DNA from: Deltaproteobacteria bacterium | Lineage (GTDB): Bacteria > Desulfobacterota > Desulfarculia > Adiutricales > JAFDHD01 | Direction of reading: 5' to 3' | Assembly (NCBI GenBank): GCA_019308995.1 | Contig: JAFDHD010000049.1 | Coordinates: forward strand, 1-47,895 | DNA length: 47,895 nt | The notes under the pieces: model-generated | Told to the model about the DNA's origin: nothing | Databases searched by the model: none | The model's input: only the letters and a program-made list of their open reading frames with translations | Translations under genes and position numbers: made by a program | In this document: positions 18,792 to 39,466 of the stretch, piece by piece | How the letters are laid out: each line of letters begins with the position of its first letter | Numbering within the stretch: the stretch's first letter is position 1

Positions 18792-21700
18792 ATGTCAAGC
18801 TCAATCACTGAATGGGAATTTACGGCAGATGTAGCAAGTTGGATCAACGAAATCCTTGCTAAAGATCACAGTTTACCCTTTTCACGGGCCAAGGTCGAAC
18901 AAAAAGGGACAGGCTCGCAAAAGCGTCGTGATCTGACCCTTCTTGACAAGAATAAGGCCGTTGCTCTCGCCGGAGAAGTCAAACTTCCCTATCGCCCCAA
19001 TGGCGGAAGCCCATACAACCATGAACTAATCCAAGATGCGCGTAAAAAGGCTGCGCGCTCTCATGCAAGGTTCTTTTTTACCTGGAACGTGAATGAGTTT
19101 GTCCTGTGGGAGACTTTTCCGGCAAAGACCGCGTGGAAAGACCGCAAGTATAAGTCATGGCTCATAACCGAGGTCCTGAAACCAGAGCACCTTGAACTCC
19201 CCATGACAGAGCATGCCATTCAAAAGTGGCTGCCTGATTTTTTAAAGGACTTTACCAAAATCTTATACGGCACAGTGCCTTTCGCTCTTCAAACTCCGGA
19301 TGAGAAATTTATAGAGGCGCTGGAGTCATCGCTCAGGTTGCCAATTCTTTTCACATTTGAAGAATTGGCGGAAAAATATAACAAACCAAAATTTAAATCA
19401 GAACTCGATAAATGGATGCGTGAGGACCAAGGCTGGATCATCCTTGGCGATCCAGAAGGTATTCGCGACAACCTTGAACGGGCCTCTAAATTTTCCTGTT
19501 ACGCCCTGGTAAACAAGCTGGTTTTTCATGAGGCGCTTCTTAGACGTTATGGAGCCAAGATTAGAAAACTCGCCATACCCGCGCATATTGACAGGGCGGA
19601 AGACTTACGATTGCATCTCGAAATGTACTTTGAGGAAGCCAAGGAAATTACAGGCGATTATGAAACGGTCTTCGGAGAAGACCACACGCTAATTGGAAAC
19701 CGTATCCCTTTTTACTCTGATAACGCTGTCCCTCACTGGCGGGAATTGATCAACCAGATTCATGAGTTCGACTTTAGTAAGCTTGATTATGAAATCATCG
19801 GCAATATTTTTGAGCGATTGATTTCTCCTGAAGAACGACACAAGTACGGTCAATTTTACACCCGTGTGGAAGTCGTTGACCTTATCAATAGCTTTTGCAT
19901 CCATCGCGGTGAGGAGAAAGTCATGGACCCAGCTTGTGGCGGCGGTACATTTCTTGTGCGAGCCTATGCGCGAAAGCGGGAGCTTTCCCCAACCCGAAAA
20001 CACGGCCAACTTCTTATGGACCTATTTGGCATTGATATATCCCATTTTGCGACGCACCTGACTACAATTAACTTAGCCACACGCGACCTGATTGATGAGG
20101 AAAACTACCCTCAAATCGCCCGTAATGACTTTTTCAATGTATCCCCCAAAAACCCTTTTCTTATTTTGCCAAAACATATCGGTGGCAGTATTCAAACACA
20201 CGGTATGGGGGCCATCCAGCACCGAAAAGTAGAAATCCCGCTTCTGGATGCTGTAATTGGGAATCCTCCGTACCTTCGGCAGGAAGATATTCCAAAGGCC
20301 AAAAAGAAAAAAGGAGACGGGGGACCAGAACCTGGCACTAAAGAATATTATCAAGGGCTTGTTAAAAAAGAGAGTCACGCAGATTTTTCTTTGCGAAGCG
20401 ACATTCACTGCTATTTCTGGCCCCATGCCTCAAGTTTCCTTAAGGAAGACGGTTATCTGTGCCTCCTAACCTCCAGCCAGTGGCTAGATGTGGAATACGG
20501 CTTCCGTTTGCAGAAATGGATTCTCCAGGATTTTGAGATTAAGGCGATCTTTGAAAGTATCGAAGAGCCATGGTTTGTTGGGGCCCGCGTTGCCACAACG
20601 GTTACTATCTTACGCCGCCAGCATGACGAAAAAAAACGTATGAACAACATCATCCGCTTTGTTCAGCTTCGCCGTCCAATTGGCGAAATCCTTGCCCATG
20701 ATGGAACCACGGCCGGAGCGGTTCAAGCTGCCAATAGCTTTCGGGATGAAATCCTTTCCCTAAAAAAGAACACCGTCAATGAGCGATACCGCGCTCGCCT
20801 GGTCCGGCAGGGTGATTTGTGGAATGAGGGTGTCCGGCTAGGCGTAATCATGGGAAAATCTAAAGACCATGGAAACGATGATCCAGAAAGTCAGATAGGG
20901 GATTACTACGGCGGCAAATGGGGCATGTACCTTAGAGCGCCTGACCTGTGGTTTCAGATCATTGATAACTATGGTACGCGCTTTATGCCATTAGGGGAGC
21001 TAGCCGAAGTACGATTTGGAGTGAAAAGCGGAAAAGACGTTTTCTTCTTTCCTAAAGATTGGAGTGCAGAATGCCTGTCAAGATATGAAGATTCGTTTGA
21101 GTTCGAAGACACTTTTGGAGTGCCGCGAAAAAAGGTTGAATCAGGCAAGGTTAAACTCGTCTTTTGCGGGGAAGATTACAGCGAAATCAGACCTATCGAA
21201 GCGAAATATCTTGAACCGGAAGTGCACAGCCTCATGGAAATAGACGGCTTTACCGTTACACCTGAAAATTGCGCCCGTCAAATTCTCCTTGTAAGCAAGA
21301 AACGTTCACAGCTTAAAGGAACGTATGTCCTCGATTACATAAAGTGGGGTGAAGAAAAAGGTTACCACAAAGGATCAACGTGCGCTGCACGCGTTACTGC
21401 TGAAAGAGAATGGTATGATCTAACGGGCCATAAACGAGGTAGCCTGTTTTGGCCTATGGCACAACAATACAGACATATTGCCCCAGTAAATGATCAGAAT
21501 CTTATTTGCAAGGCACAGCAATATAAGCACATCACTCCAATCAATGATTATAACCTCCAATGTAATTGCAATTTATATGATCTTCATTTGTCTGCTAAAG
21601 TAGAAGCATCGGTTATTGCAGGGATTCTTAATTCGTCTATCGTTGTCTTATCGAAATTCCAGTACGGTAGACCGGTTGGCGTTGAGGGTAGTCTAAAAAC

Positions 21701-22541
21701 CGAAGTAGTTGACATGAACATTATGCAAATTCCCGACCCTACGAAAGCCACAGAAAAATCACGAAACAGAGTAGCCAATGCATTTACCAAGCTCAAGCAG
21801 CGCAAAGCCCTGTATTTCCTCTCCGAGCGTCGTCTCCGGCAAATGTCCTATACCCAGGCGGGGAAAATAGATGAACTCGGAAAGCTCTCTAACGAGTCCG
21901 AACTGGATATGCCCGACCGTCGGGAATTGGATGACGCGGTTCTTCAAATGTTGGGGGTACGGTCCAAGAAACGCCGCCAGGAGCTAATAGACGAGCTTTA
22001 CGATTACCTTCGCGAGTTCTTCGAGCGAACCCGCCAGAAGGAAGAAAAGGCCATAGCCAATAAGAAGAAAGCCAAGCGGCGGGGTCCAGCCCGGCCAGGT
22101 GAAATTGCGGCCCAAATCTATCAGGAAATTAAGGAAACAGAAAACCACTTACTCCAACAGTACGATCCTGACTTCATTAACAAATCTAAATCTTTCGATA
22201 CTTTTGATCTTCCGCTCGAAGGCTCGCCAAGGCCTTATCGCGACCTTTTCGCCGAGCATGGTGTTGCTTTTATGAAAGGCGAGAAGCGTCTTGCTCTAGT
22301 TGAAACAAAGCTTCCAGCGCAGGACTCACTTGTAATCTTAGTTGCAAATTCTGGCGTGCGCGGCCTGGTTCGTATTCCGCATGAAGAAGATGAATGCAAA
22401 CGCATTTTCAATAAGTTTGAGAATTTTATAAAGAAGCGTGAAAACTTTATCTGGGAAATGATCGAACACCGCACTGCGGATGAGGACATGCAGGAGAAGA
22501 TATATGGATCCCTGATGTCGTTATTGAGCAAGCGGTGGTGA
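18792..22541 (+). CDS. type IIG-like restriction endonuclease/adenine-N6 methyltransferase (Eco57I class)
   Basis: Single 1249-residue polypeptide predicted to cut and methylate DNA. The N-terminal domain shows a PD-(D/E)XK-type pattern, D47 and E62-V-K64 (GEVK). A helical connector with RLISPEERHKYGQFYTR (about 345-360) leads to the gamma-class N6-adenine methylase: SAM motif DPACGGGTF near residue 378 and catalytic NPPY near 490. The C-terminal half resembles a TaqI/Eco57I target-recognition region (GELAEVRFGVKSGKD near 737). The tail has a charged coiled region and another globular part. No separate specificity or nuclease gene is adjacent. Base composition is more A+T-rich than flanking genes, suggesting transfer. 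PglX of BREX is the main alternative, but the nuclease motif and lack of other BREX genes argue against it. Confidence 0.88.
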   Translation: MSSSITEWEFTADVASWINEILAKDHSLPFSRAKVEQKGTGSQKRRDLTLLDKNKAVALAGEVKLPYRPNGGSPYNHELIQDARKKAARSHARFFFTWNVNEFVLWETFPAKTAWKDRKYKSWLITEVLKPEHLELPMTEHAIQKWLPDFLKDFTKILYGTVPFALQTPDEKFIEALESSLRLPILFTFEELAEKYNKPKFKSELDKWMREDQGWIILGDPEGIRDNLERASKFSCYALVNKLVFHEALLRRYGAKIRKLAIPAHIDRAEDLRLHLEMYFEEAKEITGDYETVFGEDHTLIGNRIPFYSDNAVPHWRELINQIHEFDFSKLDYEIIGNIFERLISPEERHKYGQFYTRVEVVDLINSFCIHRGEEKVMDPACGGGTFLVRAYARKRELSPTRKHGQLLMDLFGIDISHFATHLTTINLATRDLIDEENYPQIARNDFFNVSPKNPFLILPKHIGGSIQTHGMGAIQHRKVEIPLLDAVIGNPPYLRQEDIPKAKKKKGDGGPEPGTKEYYQGLVKKESHADFSLRSDIHCYFWPHASSFLKEDGYLCLLTSSQWLDVEYGFRLQKWILQDFEIKAIFESIEEPWFVGARVATTVTILRRQHDEKKRMNNIIRFVQLRRPIGEILAHDGTTAGAVQAANSFRDEILSLKKNTVNERYRARLVRQGDLWNEGVRLGVIMGKSKDHGNDDPESQIGDYYGGKWGMYLRAPDLWFQIIDNYGTRFMPLGELAEVRFGVKSGKDVFFFPKDWSAECLSRYEDSFEFEDTFGVPRKKVESGKVKLVFCGEDYSEIRPIEAKYLEPEVHSLMEIDGFTVTPENCARQILLVSKKRSQLKGTYVLDYIKWGEEKGYHKGSTCAARVTAEREWYDLTGHKRGSLFWPMAQQYRHIAPVNDQNLICKAQQYKHITPINDYNLQCNCNLYDLHLSAKVEASVIAGILNSSIVVLSKFQYGRPVGVEGSLKTEVVDMNIMQIPDPTKATEKSRNRVANAFTKLKQRKALYFLSERRLRQMSYTQAGKIDELGKLSNESELDMPDRRELDDAVLQMLGVRSKKRRQELIDELYDYLREFFERTRQKEEKAIANKKKAKRRGPARPGEIAAQIYQEIKETENHLLQQYDPDFINKSKSFDTFDLPLEGSPRPYRDLFAEHGVAFMKGEKRLALVETKLPAQDSLVILVANSGVRGLVRIPHEEDECKRIFNKFENFIKKRENFIWEMIEHRTADEDMQEKIYGSLMSLLSKRW
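21459..21566 (+). repeat. 54-bp diverged tandem repeat inside the restriction-modification gene
   Basis: Two adjacent in-frame 54-base units (21459-21512 and 21513-21566) encode AQQYRHIAPVNDQNLICK and AQQYKHITPINDYNLQCN, residues 890-925. The DNA copies differ at many positions but the protein pattern is kept, so the duplication is old. It lies in the presumed target-recognition half. Confidence 0.75.
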
Positions 22542-32781: not shown

Positions 32782-33114
32782 TTAAAAGACCATGGGGGCA
32801 TATCCATCCTTGATGAAGTCAGATATTACCGGGCCAACATAGACTACCTCCAATCCAAGCTCCTCTATCTTTTCAGAGGTTCCGTCCTGGTCGGAAATAT
32901 ACTTGCAGACCGATGGCTTTTCTTTGGCCTTGATCTCTTGGGCCGCCCGGCTGACACGCTCATCCTCCACCAGAAGTTTTTGTGATGGCCCGAAAAAGAT
33001 GACCTTGACGTCATCCAGCCAGCCGAAACGTATCGCGTTGAAGGCATACATCAACCCGGTCAATGCCTTCTCGGCTTCGCCTGTAGATATGATCATCAAT
33101 ACCTTGGAACTCAT
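32782..33114 (-). CDS. DsrE-like sulfur-relay family protein
   Basis: A 110-residue single-domain protein with the DsrE/F-like flavodoxin-type pattern: VLMIISTGEAEKALTGLMYA at the start, DDVKVIFFGPSQKLL near residue 35, and a lone cysteine C70 (PSVCKYISD) near the position of the reactive Cys in DsrE proteins. DsrE relatives transfer persulfide sulfur or serve other small-thiol roles; no dsr or tus genes are nearby, so the partner is unknown. It has a strong AGGAGG ribosome site and is transcribed divergently from the decarboxylase cluster. Confidence 0.8.
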   Translation of the reverse strand: MSSKVLMIISTGEAEKALTGLMYAFNAIRFGWLDDVKVIFFGPSQKLLVEDERVSRAAQEIKAKEKPSVCKYISDQDGTSEKIEELGLEVVYVGPVISDFIKDGYAPMVF

Positions 33115-33515
33115 GGCCCTCCTCCTTTTTTCTCGATATTCGTGAAAGCATAATTTATATTCTTTTCTGTTTCCTGTCCACCAAAGTCAGCGAAAATTAC
33201 TGAAAAGCGCGGGGGATCGTTTTTCAAAACAAGGGACGCGTCCCTCGATATATTCACACCTTTGAGACCCCTCGATCCAGGCGGCGTTCCCCACGAGCTG
33301 CATCACCGGGTATTTCAAGAGGTTCTTTCTAAAAATTAAGAAATCAAATCACTCATTTATGGAAGGTGCAAACGATTTATGCTTGACAAAACGGAAAGAT
33401 ATAGATAACAAGCTACAGGGTTCTCTAACCAGCCTCGGCCTCATGGTGAGCGCTGCATGGCTTGAATATGGAGAATAACCTGAGAGCCTGATTACACCAT
33501 TGAGGAGGCGAGTAA
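33115..33515. other. intergenic region between DsrE-like gene and biotin carrier
   Basis: 401 bases between divergent genes. I see no gene. It contains a perfect 12-bp palindrome GGGACGCGTCCC (33233-33244) and a plausible plus-strand promoter (33383-33411). Both could control the downstream decarboxylase-mutase cluster. Confidence 0.5.
33383..33411 (+). promoter_or_regulatory. candidate promoter of the biotin-carrier gene
   Basis: Consensus -35 TTGACA at 33383-33388. Possible -10 boxes are GATAAC at a 15-bp spacing or TAACAA at 17 bp; neither is strong. It lies about 105 bases before the start codon. Confidence 0.45.
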
Positions 33516-33728
33516 ATGACGGAGATAACTTCACCGATGAGCGGAAAGATACTGGAGATTAAAGTTCAGGTTGGCGATCAGGTAGCGGAAGACGATGAGG
33601 TGGTCACGCTCGAAGCGATGAAAATGGAAATCCCGGTTGTTTCTACGGATAACGGCACCGTTAAGGAGATCATGGTCCAGGTTGGCGACTCGGTTGAGGC
33701 CGATGCAGTCCTCATGACCTTGGAGTAA
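33516..33728 (+). CDS. free-standing biotin carboxyl carrier protein
   Basis: A 70-residue biotinyl domain with nothing else attached. The biotin site is K36 in EAMKMEIPV, flanked by the two symmetrical half-sandwich repeats (SPMSGKILEIKVQVGDQV and NGTVKEIMVQVGDSV). It lacks the Pro/Ala linker usually found in the gamma subunit of Na+-pumping decarboxylases. Its place two genes ahead of the beta subunit suggests it carries CO2 between MmdA and MmdB. GAGGAGG precedes the ATG. A strong terminator follows, so it may be made in excess of the membrane subunits. Confidence 0.93.
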   Translation: MTEITSPMSGKILEIKVQVGDQVAEDDEVVTLEAMKMEIPVVSTDNGTVKEIMVQVGDSVEADAVLMTLE

Positions 33729-33776
33729 CCCCTGGCCGGTAAAACCCCAGTATTAATGTTTACTTAATCATTTTTT

Positions 33777-33832
33777 AGTGGCCGCCTGAAACAATCTTAC
33801 TTAAAGAGACTTTCGGGCGACTGCTTTTTTTT
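33777..33832 (+). terminator. intrinsic terminator after the biotin-carrier gene
   Basis: A long imperfect hairpin, AGTGGCCGCCTGAAA pairing with TTTCGGGCGACTGCT (one mismatch and a few G-U pairs), is followed at once by eight T residues. It should end or attenuate the biotin-carrier transcript before the downstream OadG-like gene. Confidence 0.8.
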
Positions 33833-33850
33833 ATAACTTGTGTGCTTGAT

Positions 33851-34423
33851 ATGACCCCAAGAATTATATTCATCTTTCTGATCTGGCTTTTTTTATCGGC
33901 TTTTTCAGGATCGGTTATGGCTGAGGAGCCTTCTTTACCAGAAGCGGCCGATGAACTCTGCCAGTCATTTCTGGAGTTAATGGATCAGCATCAATATACC
34001 CAGGCATATGAGCTTATTGCCCCGCAATTCAGGCAGACCGAAACCCAGCCTCAGTGGCGCGACCGGGTTTCTTCTGAAAGAGAATCTGTAGGGGAGTTCA
34101 AATCGCGCCGGTTAGCCAAAGTGGAGAAGGCGGACGCCTTTGCCAATCTGCCAGAAGGGGATTACCTTCTGGCGGTTTACGAGACGACCTTCACCGGCCA
34201 GGCTGAAACCAGAGAGACTGTCGTCCTGACCTCGGCTGAGGACGGTTACAAACTGGCCGCGTATGAATTCAGCCGAAACGTGTGGCCCGAGGCGCTGAGA
34301 ATCATTGGCAACGGACTATTCGTGGTCTTTTTTATTATGATCCTTCTGGCCGCCGTCACCTGGGCCATGGGCAAGTTCATACAGAAAATCGAAAACTCGA
34401 AAAAGGAAGAAAATGGTAGTTAG
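33851..34423 (+). CDS. DUF4019-like exported domain fused to an OadG-like membrane segment
   Basis: A 190-residue two-part protein. A signal peptide (cleavage after VMA, residue 24) is followed by a DUF4019-like domain (about 30-140) with the family features QPQWRDRVSSERESVGEFKSR, NLPEGDYLLAVYETTF and DGYKLAAYEF. After it comes one membrane helix (about 152-173) with a short basic-then-acidic tail, resembling the gamma/delta subunit (OadG/MmdD) of Na+-transporting decarboxylases. The beta subunit starts three bases after its stop, which strongly supports the gamma-like role. DUF4019 would face the periplasm. I used ATG 33851; a GTG nine bases upstream is possible. Ribosome site unclear. Confidence 0.75.
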   Translation: MTPRIIFIFLIWLFLSAFSGSVMAEEPSLPEAADELCQSFLELMDQHQYTQAYELIAPQFRQTETQPQWRDRVSSERESVGEFKSRRLAKVEKADAFANLPEGDYLLAVYETTFTGQAETRETVVLTSAEDGYKLAAYEFSRNVWPEALRIIGNGLFVVFFIMILLAAVTWAMGKFIQKIENSKKEENGS

Positions 34424-34425
34424 CC

Positions 34426-35571
34426 ATGTTTGGAATCACGACCGGTTTCTCCTCCCTGCTTGAGAACCCGGGCCAGATCGTTATGATTCTGGTCGGTCTG
34501 GGATTCATCTACCTCGCCATAAAAAAGGAGTGGGAGCCTTATGAACTGCTGCCCATCGGCGCGGGGATGCTCCTGGCCAATTTACCTTTGACCGGTCTGA
34601 CCACCCAGCCTGAGCCGGGCCTGGCACCGGGCATGGCCGGCGTGCTGGGCATCATCCTCAAGTACGGCCTCTACACCTGGACGCTCCTGCCTCAGTTCAT
34701 TTTCTTCGGGATCGGGGCTTTAACCGACTTCGGGCCGCTGATCGCCAACCCCAGGGCCTTTCTCCTGGGGGCGGCCGCTCAGATCGGCATTTACACCGCC
34801 TTTGCCGGGGCCATCTTTTTGGGGTTCACCCTCCGGGAATCTTGCTCCATCGGCATTATCGGCGGTGCGGACGGCCCGACTACCATCTACACCACCGGGC
34901 TGCTGGCCCCGGCAATCATGGGCATTACCGCCACGGCGGCCTATTCCTACATGGCCATGGTAGCCATCATTCAGCCGCCCATCATCAGGGCCTTAACCAC
35001 CAAAAAAGAGAGACAAACCCTGATGAAGCCCTTGACGCGGCAAGTCTCTAAAACAGAAAAAATCCTCTTCCCTATTTACTCCTCCATCATCATCATCCTG
35101 CTCATTCCTAAAAGCGCTCCCCTGGTCGGCATGCTCCTGCTGGGCAACCTCTTCCGGGAAAGCGGAGTGGTCGAGCGCCTCTCTCAGACCGCTCAAAACG
35201 AGATGGTCAATATCATCACCATCCTGCTCATGCTGGGTATTGGAGCCTCCATGCCAGCGGATAAGGTTCTCCAGACCCGGACATTGATGGTGCTTGCCCT
35301 AGGGTTGCTCGCCTTTTGCATTGGCACGGCCGGCGGGGTTCTGCTCGGTAAGGTCATGAGCTGGATTTCAAAGGAGCCTTTCAATCCCATGCTCGGCGCG
35401 GCTGGGGTTTCAGCGGTGCCCATGAGCTCCCGGATCGTCCAGCATATGGGCCAGCAGGAAAACAAGCGGAACTACCTGCTCATGCATGCCATGGGAGCGA
35501 ACGTAGCCGGTGTTATCGGGTCTGCCGTAGCAGGCGGTTTTTTCTTATCCTATTTTCATCAGTTGTTTTAA
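34426..35571 (+). CDS. Na+-translocating decarboxylase beta subunit (MmdB/OadB/GcdB)
   Basis: Integral membrane subunit of 381 residues that decarboxylates carboxybiotin and pumps Na+ outward. Family marks are IYLAIKKEWEPYELLPIGAG near residue 30, the ion-site loop GIIGGADGPTTIYTTG (about 143-158), and the C-terminal MLGAAGVSAVPMSSRIVQ. It has about nine to eleven predicted helices and normal length. Substrate cannot be told from this subunit; the neighbouring carboxyltransferase and methylmalonyl-CoA mutase suggest methylmalonyl-CoA. Start ATG is three bases after the OadG-like gene, so the two are co-translated. Confidence 0.95.
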   Translation: MFGITTGFSSLLENPGQIVMILVGLGFIYLAIKKEWEPYELLPIGAGMLLANLPLTGLTTQPEPGLAPGMAGVLGIILKYGLYTWTLLPQFIFFGIGALTDFGPLIANPRAFLLGAAAQIGIYTAFAGAIFLGFTLRESCSIGIIGGADGPTTIYTTGLLAPAIMGITATAAYSYMAMVAIIQPPIIRALTTKKERQTLMKPLTRQVSKTEKILFPIYSSIIIILLIPKSAPLVGMLLLGNLFRESGVVERLSQTAQNEMVNIITILLMLGIGASMPADKVLQTRTLMVLALGLLAFCIGTAGGVLLGKVMSWISKEPFNPMLGAAGVSAVPMSSRIVQHMGQQENKRNYLLMHAMGANVAGVIGSAVAGGFFLSYFHQLF

Positions 35572-35773: not shown

Positions 35774-37330
35774 ATGGCAAACAGCGATAAATATGAGGAA
35801 TTAAGACGGCGTGACGCAGAGGCCCTTCTGGGCGGCGGCCAGGATAGAATTGACGCCCAGCACAAGAAAGGCAAGATGACCGCCCGGGAGCGGGTAAAAT
35901 TCCTTTTGGACGATGGAACGTTCGAAGAATTTGACCGCTTTGTAGTCCACCGCTGCACCGATTTCGGGATGGACAAGAAAAAGATACCTGGAGACGGGGT
36001 GGTTACAGGCTATGGCACGATTGACGGCCGTCTGGTGTACGTTTTTTCGCAGGATTTTACCGTTTTCGGCGGCTCACTCAGCGGGGCCTTTGGTGAGAAG
36101 GTCTGCAAGATCATGGACATGGCCGTGGCTAACGGCGCGCCGGTCATTGGTCTCAACGATTCGGGCGGAGCGCGGATTCAGGAGGGGGTTGAGTCCCTGG
36201 GCAGCTATGGCGAGATTTTCAAACGCAACGTCCTCGCATCGGGAGTGGTCCCCCAGATATCAGTGGTCATGGGGCCCTGCGCCGGAGGGGCCGTCTATTC
36301 CCCTGCCATTACCGACTTCACGATCATGGTTGACAAGACCTCCCATATGTTCATTACCGGACCCCAGGTCATTAAGACGGTGAGCCACGAGGAGGTGGAT
36401 GCAGAGCACCTGGGCGGGGCGATGCGGCACAATACCACCAGCGGTGTGGCTCAATTCCTGGCTGACAATGATAAAGAGGCCCTGAAGCTGGTCCGGGATC
36501 TCCTGGCCTTCCTGCCATCAAACTACGCGGAGAAACCGCCACGGATCGAGTGTCGCGATGACCCTGAAAGGGTGGAGATGAAATTGAGGGACATCATCCC
36601 GGACAATCCCAAGAAGCCTTACCGCATGAAGGAGATCATCACGGCCGTGGTGGACGACGGTCACTTCCTCGAGGTTTCCCGCCGTCATGCCCAGAACATG
36701 ATCACCGGCTTCGCCCGCCTGGACGGTTATCCCGTGGGTATCGTCGCCAACAACCCCAGATTTTTAGCCGGCTGCCTTGATATTGACGCCTCGAATAAGT
36801 GCGCTCGGTTCGTCCGTTTTTGTGACGCTTTTAATATTCCTCTGGTGACCTTTGTTGACGTGCCAGGTTATCTGCCCGGGGTGGCCCAGGAGCATGGGGG
36901 GATTATCAAGCACGGATCGAAGATAATTTACGCCTACTGTGAAGCCACCGTGCCTTTAATTACGGTCATCACGCGCAAGGCTTACGGCGGCGCTTACGAC
37001 GTCATGGCCAGCAAACACCACGGCGGGGACATCAATTATGCCTATCCCACCGCTGAGATCGCTGTCATGGGCCCTGACGGCGCGGTCAACATTATCTTTC
37101 GGCATGAAATTGAGAATGCCCCGCCCGAGGAGCAGGAAAAGATCAGAGAGGAACTGGTTGATAATTACCGCCGCACCTTTGCCAGCCCATACAAGGCCGC
37201 TGAAAAAGGCTATATTGACGAGATTATTATGCCAGAAGACACCAGGCTCAAACTCATCCGGGCCCTGAAATCCCTGAGGCGGAAAAAGGCCAGTCGGCCC
37301 GCCCGCCGGCATGGTAATATTCCACTTTAA
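35774..37330 (+). CDS. methylmalonyl-CoA carboxyltransferase / propionyl-CoA carboxylase beta-type subunit
   Basis: Carboxyltransferase of 518 residues that moves the carboxyl group between methylmalonyl-CoA and biotin. It has both crotonase-fold halves: [16 protein letters not shown] near residue 93, [20 protein letters not shown] near 135, [16 protein letters not shown], and in the second half [20 protein letters not shown] and [13 protein letters not shown]. Length fits MmdA, PccB or transcarboxylase 12S. With a biotin carrier and OadB-type subunit nearby and no biotin carboxylase in the window, the decarboxylase role (MmdA) is favoured. A GGAG site precedes ATG 35774. Confidence 0.93.
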
Positions 37331-37366: not shown

Positions 37367-39031
37367 ATGGACAATGGCGAAATTAAAAAAAGTAAGGAAG
37401 CCTGGCAGGCTAAGGTGGAAAAGACTTTAGCCAAGAGGCCGGAACGGAAGGGAAACTTTACTACCCTCTCGGAACTTCCTATTGATCGGCTTTATGCTCC
37501 AGACGACTTGGCTGCATTCGATTATGAACAGGACCTGGGTTTCCCGGGTGAGTATCCTTTTACGCGAGGGGTCCAGCCGACCATGTACCGGGGACGCTTA
37601 TGGACCATGCGCCAGTATGCCGGTTTTGGTACGGCCGAGGAGTCAAACGAGCGATACAGGTACCTTCTCAAGCAGGGCCAAACCGGACTGTCGGTGGCCT
37701 TTGACCTGCCGACGCAGATCGGCTATGACTCGGACGACGAAGTCGCGCGGGGTGAAGTCGGGAAGGTCGGTGTGGCCATTGACTCCCTGGCCGACATGGA
37801 GACTCTGTTTGCCAACATCCCTCTGGACAGGGTCAGCACCTCCATGACCATCAATGCCCCGGCTGCGATCCTGCTGGCCATGTATATCGTAGTTGGAGAG
37901 AAGCAGGGTGTGTCCAGAGAGAAACTGACCGGGACTATTCAGAACGATATCCTGAAGGAGTATTCAGCCCGAGGGACGTACATCTTCCCGCCCCAGCCTT
38001 CCATGCGTATCATCACCGATATTTTCGCCTTTTGCACCCGGGAGGTTCCGCGCTGGAACAGCATCTCCATCAGCGGCTATCATATCCGGGAGGCCGGATC
38101 AACCGCGGTCCAGGAAGTGGCCTTCACCCTGGCCAATGGCGTTGCTTATGTAGAAGCCGCCCTGAAAGCCGGGCTGAAGGCGGATGAGTTCGCGCCGCGG
38201 CTTTCATTCTTCTTCAATTCCCATCTGGACTTCCTGGAAGAGATTGCAAAATTTCGCGCCGCCCGGCGCCTCTGGGCGCGCATCATGAAAGAACGTTTCA
38301 AGGCGGAAAACCCCCGCTCTCTCATGCTCCGGTTTCACACCCAGACCGCGGGGTGCACCCTGACGGCCCAGCAGCCGGCCAACAATATCGTTCGGGTCGC
38401 TTTTCAGGCCTTGGCCGCGGTCCTGGGCGGGACCCAGTCCCTGCATACCAACTCCATGGACGAGGCCTTCTCCCTGCCCACCGAAGAAGCGGTCTCCATT
38501 GCGCTCAAGACCCAGCAGGTCATCGCTTATGAGACTGGAGTGACCGACACCGTGGACCCCCTGGCCGGGTCCTACTACATTGAGTACCAGACCAACCGGA
38601 TTGAGGCTGAGGCCAGGGAGTATATCCAGAAAATTGAGGAGATGGGCGGGGCCGTGGCCGCGGTGGAAAACGGTTATATCCAGAAGGAGATCCAGGAAAG
38701 CTCATATCATTTTCAGAAGACGGTCGAGAACGGCGAAAGGGTCGTCGTGGGCATCAACAAGTTCCAGACCGAGGAGGCTCAGCCCTCGCACCTGCTGCGG
38801 GTTGATCCGGTGGTGGGAGAGCAGCAATGTGAAAAGCTGAAGACACTCAAAACCAAACGGGATCAGGCCGCCGTGAACCACAGCCTTGAAATCCTGGTCA
38901 AGGCGGCCAGGGGTGAGGCCAACCTGATGCCTCCCATCATCGAGGCGGTCAGGGCTTACACCACTTTAGGCGAAATCTGCAACGCCCTTCGTTCAGTTTT
39001 CGGCGAGTATGAAGCCTCGGTCACGATATGA
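37367..39031 (+). CDS. methylmalonyl-CoA mutase, large (catalytic) subunit
   Basis: TIM-barrel catalytic subunit of 554 residues, converting succinyl-CoA and (R)-methylmalonyl-CoA by a B12 radical mechanism. It carries [20 protein letters not shown] near residue 65, [31 protein letters not shown] near 190, and the [14 protein letters not shown] block near 325. It stops before any cobalamin domain, which is supplied by the next gene, as in archaeal and many deltaproteobacterial mutases. The gap to the carboxyltransferase is 36 bases, so they are probably one transcript. Confidence 0.96.
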
Positions 39032-39067: not shown

Positions 39068-39466
39068 ATGACAAATGAAAAAAAAATACGCGTGCTCACA
39101 GCCAAGCCAGGCCTGGACGGTCATGACCGAGGCATCAAGGTCATTAGCCGGGCCTTTAGGGACGCGGGCATGGAAGTGATCTATACCGGCATCAGAAAAA
39201 CCCCGGCCCAAATTGTTTCCGCCGCCATTCAGGAGGATGTGGACGTCATCGCCATGTCCGTGCTGTCCGGGGCTCATGACTACCTCTTTACCAGGGTCAT
39301 GGAGCTTTTAAAGGAACAGGGTGTTGAAGATATACTGGTCATCGGCGGCGGGATAATTCCCGAGGAAGATATTCCCGACCTCAAGGAGGCAGGCATTGCC
39401 GCCGTCTTCGGCCCTGGAACCTACACCCAGGATATCATCGCTTTTATTCAGGCCAGCGTTAAATAA
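39068..39466 (+). CDS. methylmalonyl-CoA mutase, cobalamin-binding small subunit
   Basis: A 132-residue Rossmann-like B12-binding protein. It has the base-off motif DxHxxG as D17-G-H19-D-R-G22, the S64-x-L66 element and the GGGIIPEED loop near residue 93, all contacting the nucleotide tail of cobalamin. It completes the split mutase with the preceding large subunit. The ATG is preceded by GAGGTG, 36 bases after the large-subunit stop. Confidence 0.96.

Follow-up and report, generated by a model that had tools for sequence, protein, structure and literature searches.

Sodium-pumping decarboxylases contain a small anchoring subunit, named gamma in oxaloacetate decarboxylase (OAD) and delta in methylmalonyl-CoA decarboxylase. 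In the beta3gamma3 complex of Salmonella (6IVA/6IWW) the gamma subunit OadG is a single-helix anchor partnered with OadB; its C-terminal tail is cytoplasmic, it touches both the core and the scaffold domains of beta, its known role is stabilisation, and a coupling between its movement and transport has been proposed (PMC7274780). MmdD and GcdD, the delta subunits of methylmalonyl-CoA and glutaconyl-CoA decarboxylase, act as the scaffold of complexes with a separate carboxyltransferase and biotin carrier (PMC7274780).

Exported domains attached to gamma subunits were described by Eberhardt et al. (2013; PMC3924330), who reported NTF2-like DUFs (from the set DUF3828, DUF3887 and DUF4878) fused N-terminally to OAD gamma and proposed that these fusions sense ligands and regulate sodium flux. 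DUF3887 is mostly found in Bacillota, and DUF4019 is not mentioned in that work (PMC3924330). A literature search found no experimental test of the outside-sensing input proposed in 2013, and salmonellosis severity was the sole context found for DUF4019. We know of no exported N-terminal domain in MmdD or GcdD.

The gene described here lies in a stretch of 47,895 nucleotides (hereafter the window) from a Deltaproteobacteria bacterium and encodes a fusion of a signal peptide, DUF4019 and an OAD gamma-type anchor, which is confirmed as real and as conserved in one small lineage. It shares with the fusions of Eberhardt et al. the order of an exported N-terminal NTF2-like domain (here predicted) followed by an OAD gamma membrane segment, and differs from them in the DUF involved, in having been found here in that one lineage and in an operon apparently of the methylmalonyl-CoA type. 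Both the general architecture and the main hypothesis on its function go back to that work of 2013 (PMC3924330); an earlier sequence-only reading of the locus, which knew of no role for DUF4019 in decarboxylase pumps, is superseded in that respect, although the DUFs described in 2013 are related ones and not DUF4019. To this the present analysis adds a version with DUF4019, together with its lineage, the exact junction and the operon.

Domain Organization of the Fusion Protein

The fusion gene occupies positions 33851-34423 of the forward strand, from an ATG at 33851 to a TAG stop at 34421-34423 with no internal stop; an alternative in-frame start is the GTG at 33842. Hydrophobic stretches cover residues 1-26 and 144-180 of the protein (Kyte-Doolittle windows). 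Residues 1-24 (33851-33922) form a predicted signal peptide, with a hydrophobic stretch and an AxA-type motif recognised by eye and cleavage predicted between VMA and EE, and counterparts of this segment are present in loci L003 and L004. The hydrophobic N-terminus and the plausible signal-peptidase site support the export of the following domain that the sequence-only reading had suggested.

This domain (33962-34264, residues 38-138) matches the DUF4019 profile PF13211 over positions 3-104 of 104 with 74.2 bits (E=1.3e-20; range 74-76 bits), which exceeds the curated cut-off of 26.5 bits over the whole domain, and DUF3887 (PF13026) scores below its own cut-off in the same region (19.2 vs 31.8 bits). 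The OAD_gamma-type anchor and a short, presumably cytoplasmic tail follow as one continuous modelled helix (34283-34417, residues 145-189). Here the match to PF04277 lies at the threshold, with 26.9 bits against a cut-off of 27 in the Pfam search (E=7.7e-6, residues 147-187) and 27.2 bits in a whole-genome scan; it is restricted to the N-terminal half of the profile (positions 2-42 of 76), as is the match of the short gammas of the class to a similar N-terminal part. The family model TIGR01195 (oadG_fam, NCBIfam) scores weakly, 23.6 bits against a cut-off of 36. The open frame and Pfam thus agree with the proposal that signal peptide, DUF4019 and gamma-type membrane helix belong to one protein, firmly for DUF4019 and marginally for the anchor.

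The C-terminal cytoplasmic alpha-binding tail of OAD-type gammas is absent, the profile match stopping at position 42 and being followed by a short charged tail, and for this reason the protein is labelled a small gamma/delta-type anchor and not an OAD-type OadG. Compared with Salmonella OadG (PMC7274780), it has in common the single-helix anchor, the expected cytoplasmic C-terminus and the OadB partner, whereas OadG has no exported domain and the fusion has a short tail devoid of the alpha-binding amphipathic region. Genome-wide profile scans found a single DUF4019, a single OAD_gamma and a single OadB in the genome of the window, which makes the fusion the most likely candidate for the small subunit of the putative sodium pump.

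Operon and Type of Decarboxylase

The genes of the putative operon that are given here with coordinates lie on the forward strand. Upstream of the fusion is the gene for a 70-residue biotin carrier protein with the biotinylation motif EAMKM (33516-33728; PF00364, 73.8 bits). Downstream are the carboxybiotin decarboxylase beta subunit OadB/MmdB (34426-35571; PF03977, 485 bits; 6IVA chain A, E=3.5e-107), an MmdA-like carboxyltransferase or alpha subunit (35774-37330; PF01039, 662 bits; TIGR01117 mmdA, 822.7 bits, below the cut-off of 998.8), the large part of a methylmalonyl-CoA mutase (37367-39031; PF01642, 777 bits), a 132-residue ORF (39068-39466) that is a probable cobalamin-binding mutase subunit judging by a DGHDRG motif seen by eye, and an enoyl-CoA hydratase-like protein. 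The genes for the MmdA-type carboxyltransferase, the separate biotin carrier, beta and the small anchor are all adjacent. Because the carboxyltransferase and biotin carrier are separate and a methylmalonyl-CoA mutase adjoins them, the gene content points to a methylmalonyl-CoA-type complex rather than an oxaloacetate decarboxylase, and the fusion would then resemble MmdD and GcdD as the scaffold of such a complex.

The sequence-only reading had placed oadB directly behind the fusion at a distance of three bases; the adjacency stands, and the gap measures 2 bases (oadB ATG at 34426). This position is the usual one of a gamma gene, and it bears on whether the protein has left the pump altogether to become a membrane-anchored periplasmic protein with a borrowed gamma-like helix and no part in decarboxylation. 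The borderline OAD_gamma match and the missing alpha-binding tail would fit such a protein; however, the short gammas of the class also match PF04277 over its N-terminal part only, the fusion is the only gamma in its genome, and the anchor is better kept among orthologues than DUF4019. We regard a departure from the pump as highly improbable.

A hairpin followed by a T run, resembling a terminator, separates the biotin carrier gene from the fusion (33777-33833, forward strand; fold z=-2.65). A comparable hairpin occurs in locus L003, of genome G001, where a C-G pair is replaced by U-A, and at the equivalent site genome G005 has a different, GC-rich hairpin without a T run. The hairpin at 33777-33833 was absent from the output of a consensus terminator scan, the limits of which exclude its imperfect stem and its loop, and an Rfam scan of 33300-34500 gave only a chance-level match. 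The retention of the terminator-like hairpin in L003, paired change included, suggests that production of the biotin carrier may differ in level from that of the membrane subunits.

Two other genes of the window were recorded. A 110-residue ORF on the minus strand (32782-33114) looks DsrE-like by eye, with no Pfam match at E<=0.001, and such an ORF also stands beside the biotin carrier in L003. The gene at 18792-22541 encodes a protein of 1249 residues that carries Eco57I and N6_Mtase domains and is probably a type IIG-like restriction-modification enzyme.

Distribution and Origin

Among 60 genomes searched, two besides that of the window encode orthologues of the fusion: G001, of the same genus (64% identity to the fusion of the window), and G005, of the same order but another family (39% identity). 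The gene order biotin carrier-fusion-oadB is kept in all three, and this conservation upholds the suggested link to the beta subunit. Neither of the outcomes that would have spoken against the sequence-only reading, a missing DUF4019 match or an unmatched membrane segment in a gene not conserved beside oadB, was observed. The trivial explanation, that an assembly or frame artefact has joined two neighbouring genes, is refuted by the orthologues in G001 and G005: the same fusion recurs at these identities and contains no internal stop, so that an assembly error or a chance frame is practically out of the question.

Wider searches added no member to this group. When 395 genomes of the phylum were surveyed with the fusion alignment as query, no additional fusion emerged; 36 other genomes gave matches, each of them to a separate DUF4019 protein or a separate short gamma. 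Scanning a genome contig collection with the single sequence returned nothing, and scanning it with the alignment returned only two loci, with match identities equal to those of the G001 and G005 orthologues. In the loci recovered by a phylum-wide PF04277 scan, the gamma-like genes with long open frames carried no recognisable exported domain; they had C-terminal extensions or an open frame ahead of a likely later start. A plasmid search gave DUF4019 matches only, none covering 80% of the query.

Aligned to a profile of the three fusions, DUF4019 proteins that stand alone reach to about position 140 and gammas that stand alone start at positions 139-144, so the junction coincides with a clean domain boundary; over 37 residues the fused helix shares 65% identity with the stand-alone short gamma of genome G042. 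In a tree of 28 OadB proteins of the class (quick method, SH-aLRT support only), a group with full support comprises 15 rows, and within it the three fusion genomes occupy one side of an inner branch (support 85). In the remaining 12 loci, the sister clade, a short gamma either lies immediately upstream of oadB or overlaps it, so that the fusion appears to go back to a single acquisition of an exported domain. The simplest reading of these sequences is that a signal peptide and DUF4019 were probably gained once at the N-terminus of a pre-existing short gamma.

Some further loci deserve a brief mention. In the short-gamma locus L082 the open frame extends 74 residues further upstream. A genome of the same order, 70% complete and with no OadB found, encodes two tandem DUF4019 proteins (G003:C656:161-995; L007/L020). 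Most genomes of family f2, also of this order, have no OadB at all, and the sole OadB found in that family (G014:C170:6715-7827; L095) is very divergent and sits on a long tree branch.

Structure, Topology and Proposed Role

An AlphaFold model of the fusion based on 51 sequences (mean pLDDT 93.4) consists, in order, of a signal helix, three helices, four strands and a continuous 45-residue helix (145-189) that begins about two residues after strand 132-142. Foldseek against the PDB gave no match at E<=0.001; among the matches listed, the best whole-domain fit was 4HYZ, a DUF3887 protein (TMt 0.70, rmsd 3.7), and many of the others were NTF2-like domains, such as 3K7C, G3BP1 and the N-terminal part of PBP2a. 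A structure search of BFVD returned nothing at E<=0.001, and a sequence search of the PDB with the fusion protein gave no match. From the model, the DUF4019 domain is predicted to be NTF2-like.

A signal peptide at the N-terminus and a segment rich in lysine behind the anchor helix fit the orientation of the Salmonella subunit, which would place DUF4019 outside, beside beta. We infer topology, complex membership and stoichiometry as follows. The gene product would be the small anchoring subunit, with signal peptide and DUF4019 placed at the end of the anchor that is expected on the outward side of the membrane. After export and cleavage, DUF4019 would stand on the periplasmic face beside beta, linked by about two residues to the beta-contacting helix and present in three copies per beta3gamma3 complex. 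There its binding partner would most likely be a small ligand or a component of the envelope, and binding would bias or stabilise the beta-gamma assembly. DUF4019 most likely serves the pump as a periplasmic accessory; ligand binding and regulation are hypothetical, and to the proposal as a whole we give about an even chance. A more specific version, in which a periplasmic ligand on the predicted NTF2-like domain acts through the two-residue joint and the gamma helix to alter the elevator motion of beta, so that the pump is gated from outside, appears rather unlikely.

Several observations temper this proposal. Between the window and G005, identity is 35% in DUF4019 and 60% in the anchor, and the OadB of G005 is up to 87% identical to other OadBs of the fusion clade, which puts DUF4019 among the least constrained parts. 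Divergence this fast gives little reason to expect a ligand site under strict conservation or a tight and fixed contact with beta, and argues for caution, as do the OAD_gamma match at threshold only and the sister-clade pumps without DUF4019.

The same divergence fits the weak sequence constraint of a purely structural domain, which would cap beta3gamma3 on the periplasmic side to stabilise it or tie it to the envelope and would involve neither ligand nor regulation. This possibility, to which we assign a probability short of even, also agrees with stabilisation as the known role of gamma (PMC7274780) and with the very short linker between DUF4019 and the helix; against it, a short gamma suffices in the sister clade, and DUF4019 is paired elsewhere with LuxR-type DNA-binding domains, which looks like an input role.

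These last proteins, from Acetobacter and Sphingopyxis (WP_035979553.1, WP_212599210.1), are membrane proteins with a LuxR HTH in which DUF4019 is the apparent periplasmic part. As in the fusion, DUF4019 is set across one membrane helix from the cytoplasmic part; unlike in the fusion, the domain order is reversed and the partner is DNA-binding rather than a pump subunit. By analogy, such partners are as expected of an input domain, and the interpretation of equivalent fusions with other NTF2-like DUFs as ligand sensors (PMC3924330) may be taken as further support. Because DUF4019 is the apparent periplasmic part of LuxR-HTH proteins and the sister pumps lack the domain, sensing is slightly favoured over pure stabilisation, these being the two roles that the sequence-only reading had thought possible.

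Regulation of the pump by the exported domain would give decarboxylase sodium pumps an outside-sensing input; were the domain only structural, the fusion would represent a small architectural variation. The short joint and the existence of a sister clade without the domain make a clean comparison possible. On Acetobacter and Sphingopyxis plasmids, the LuxR-HTH-TM-DUF4019 genes (L149, 339-1118; L150, 336-1118) lie directly downstream of recombinase-family genes, forming the same gene pair in both.
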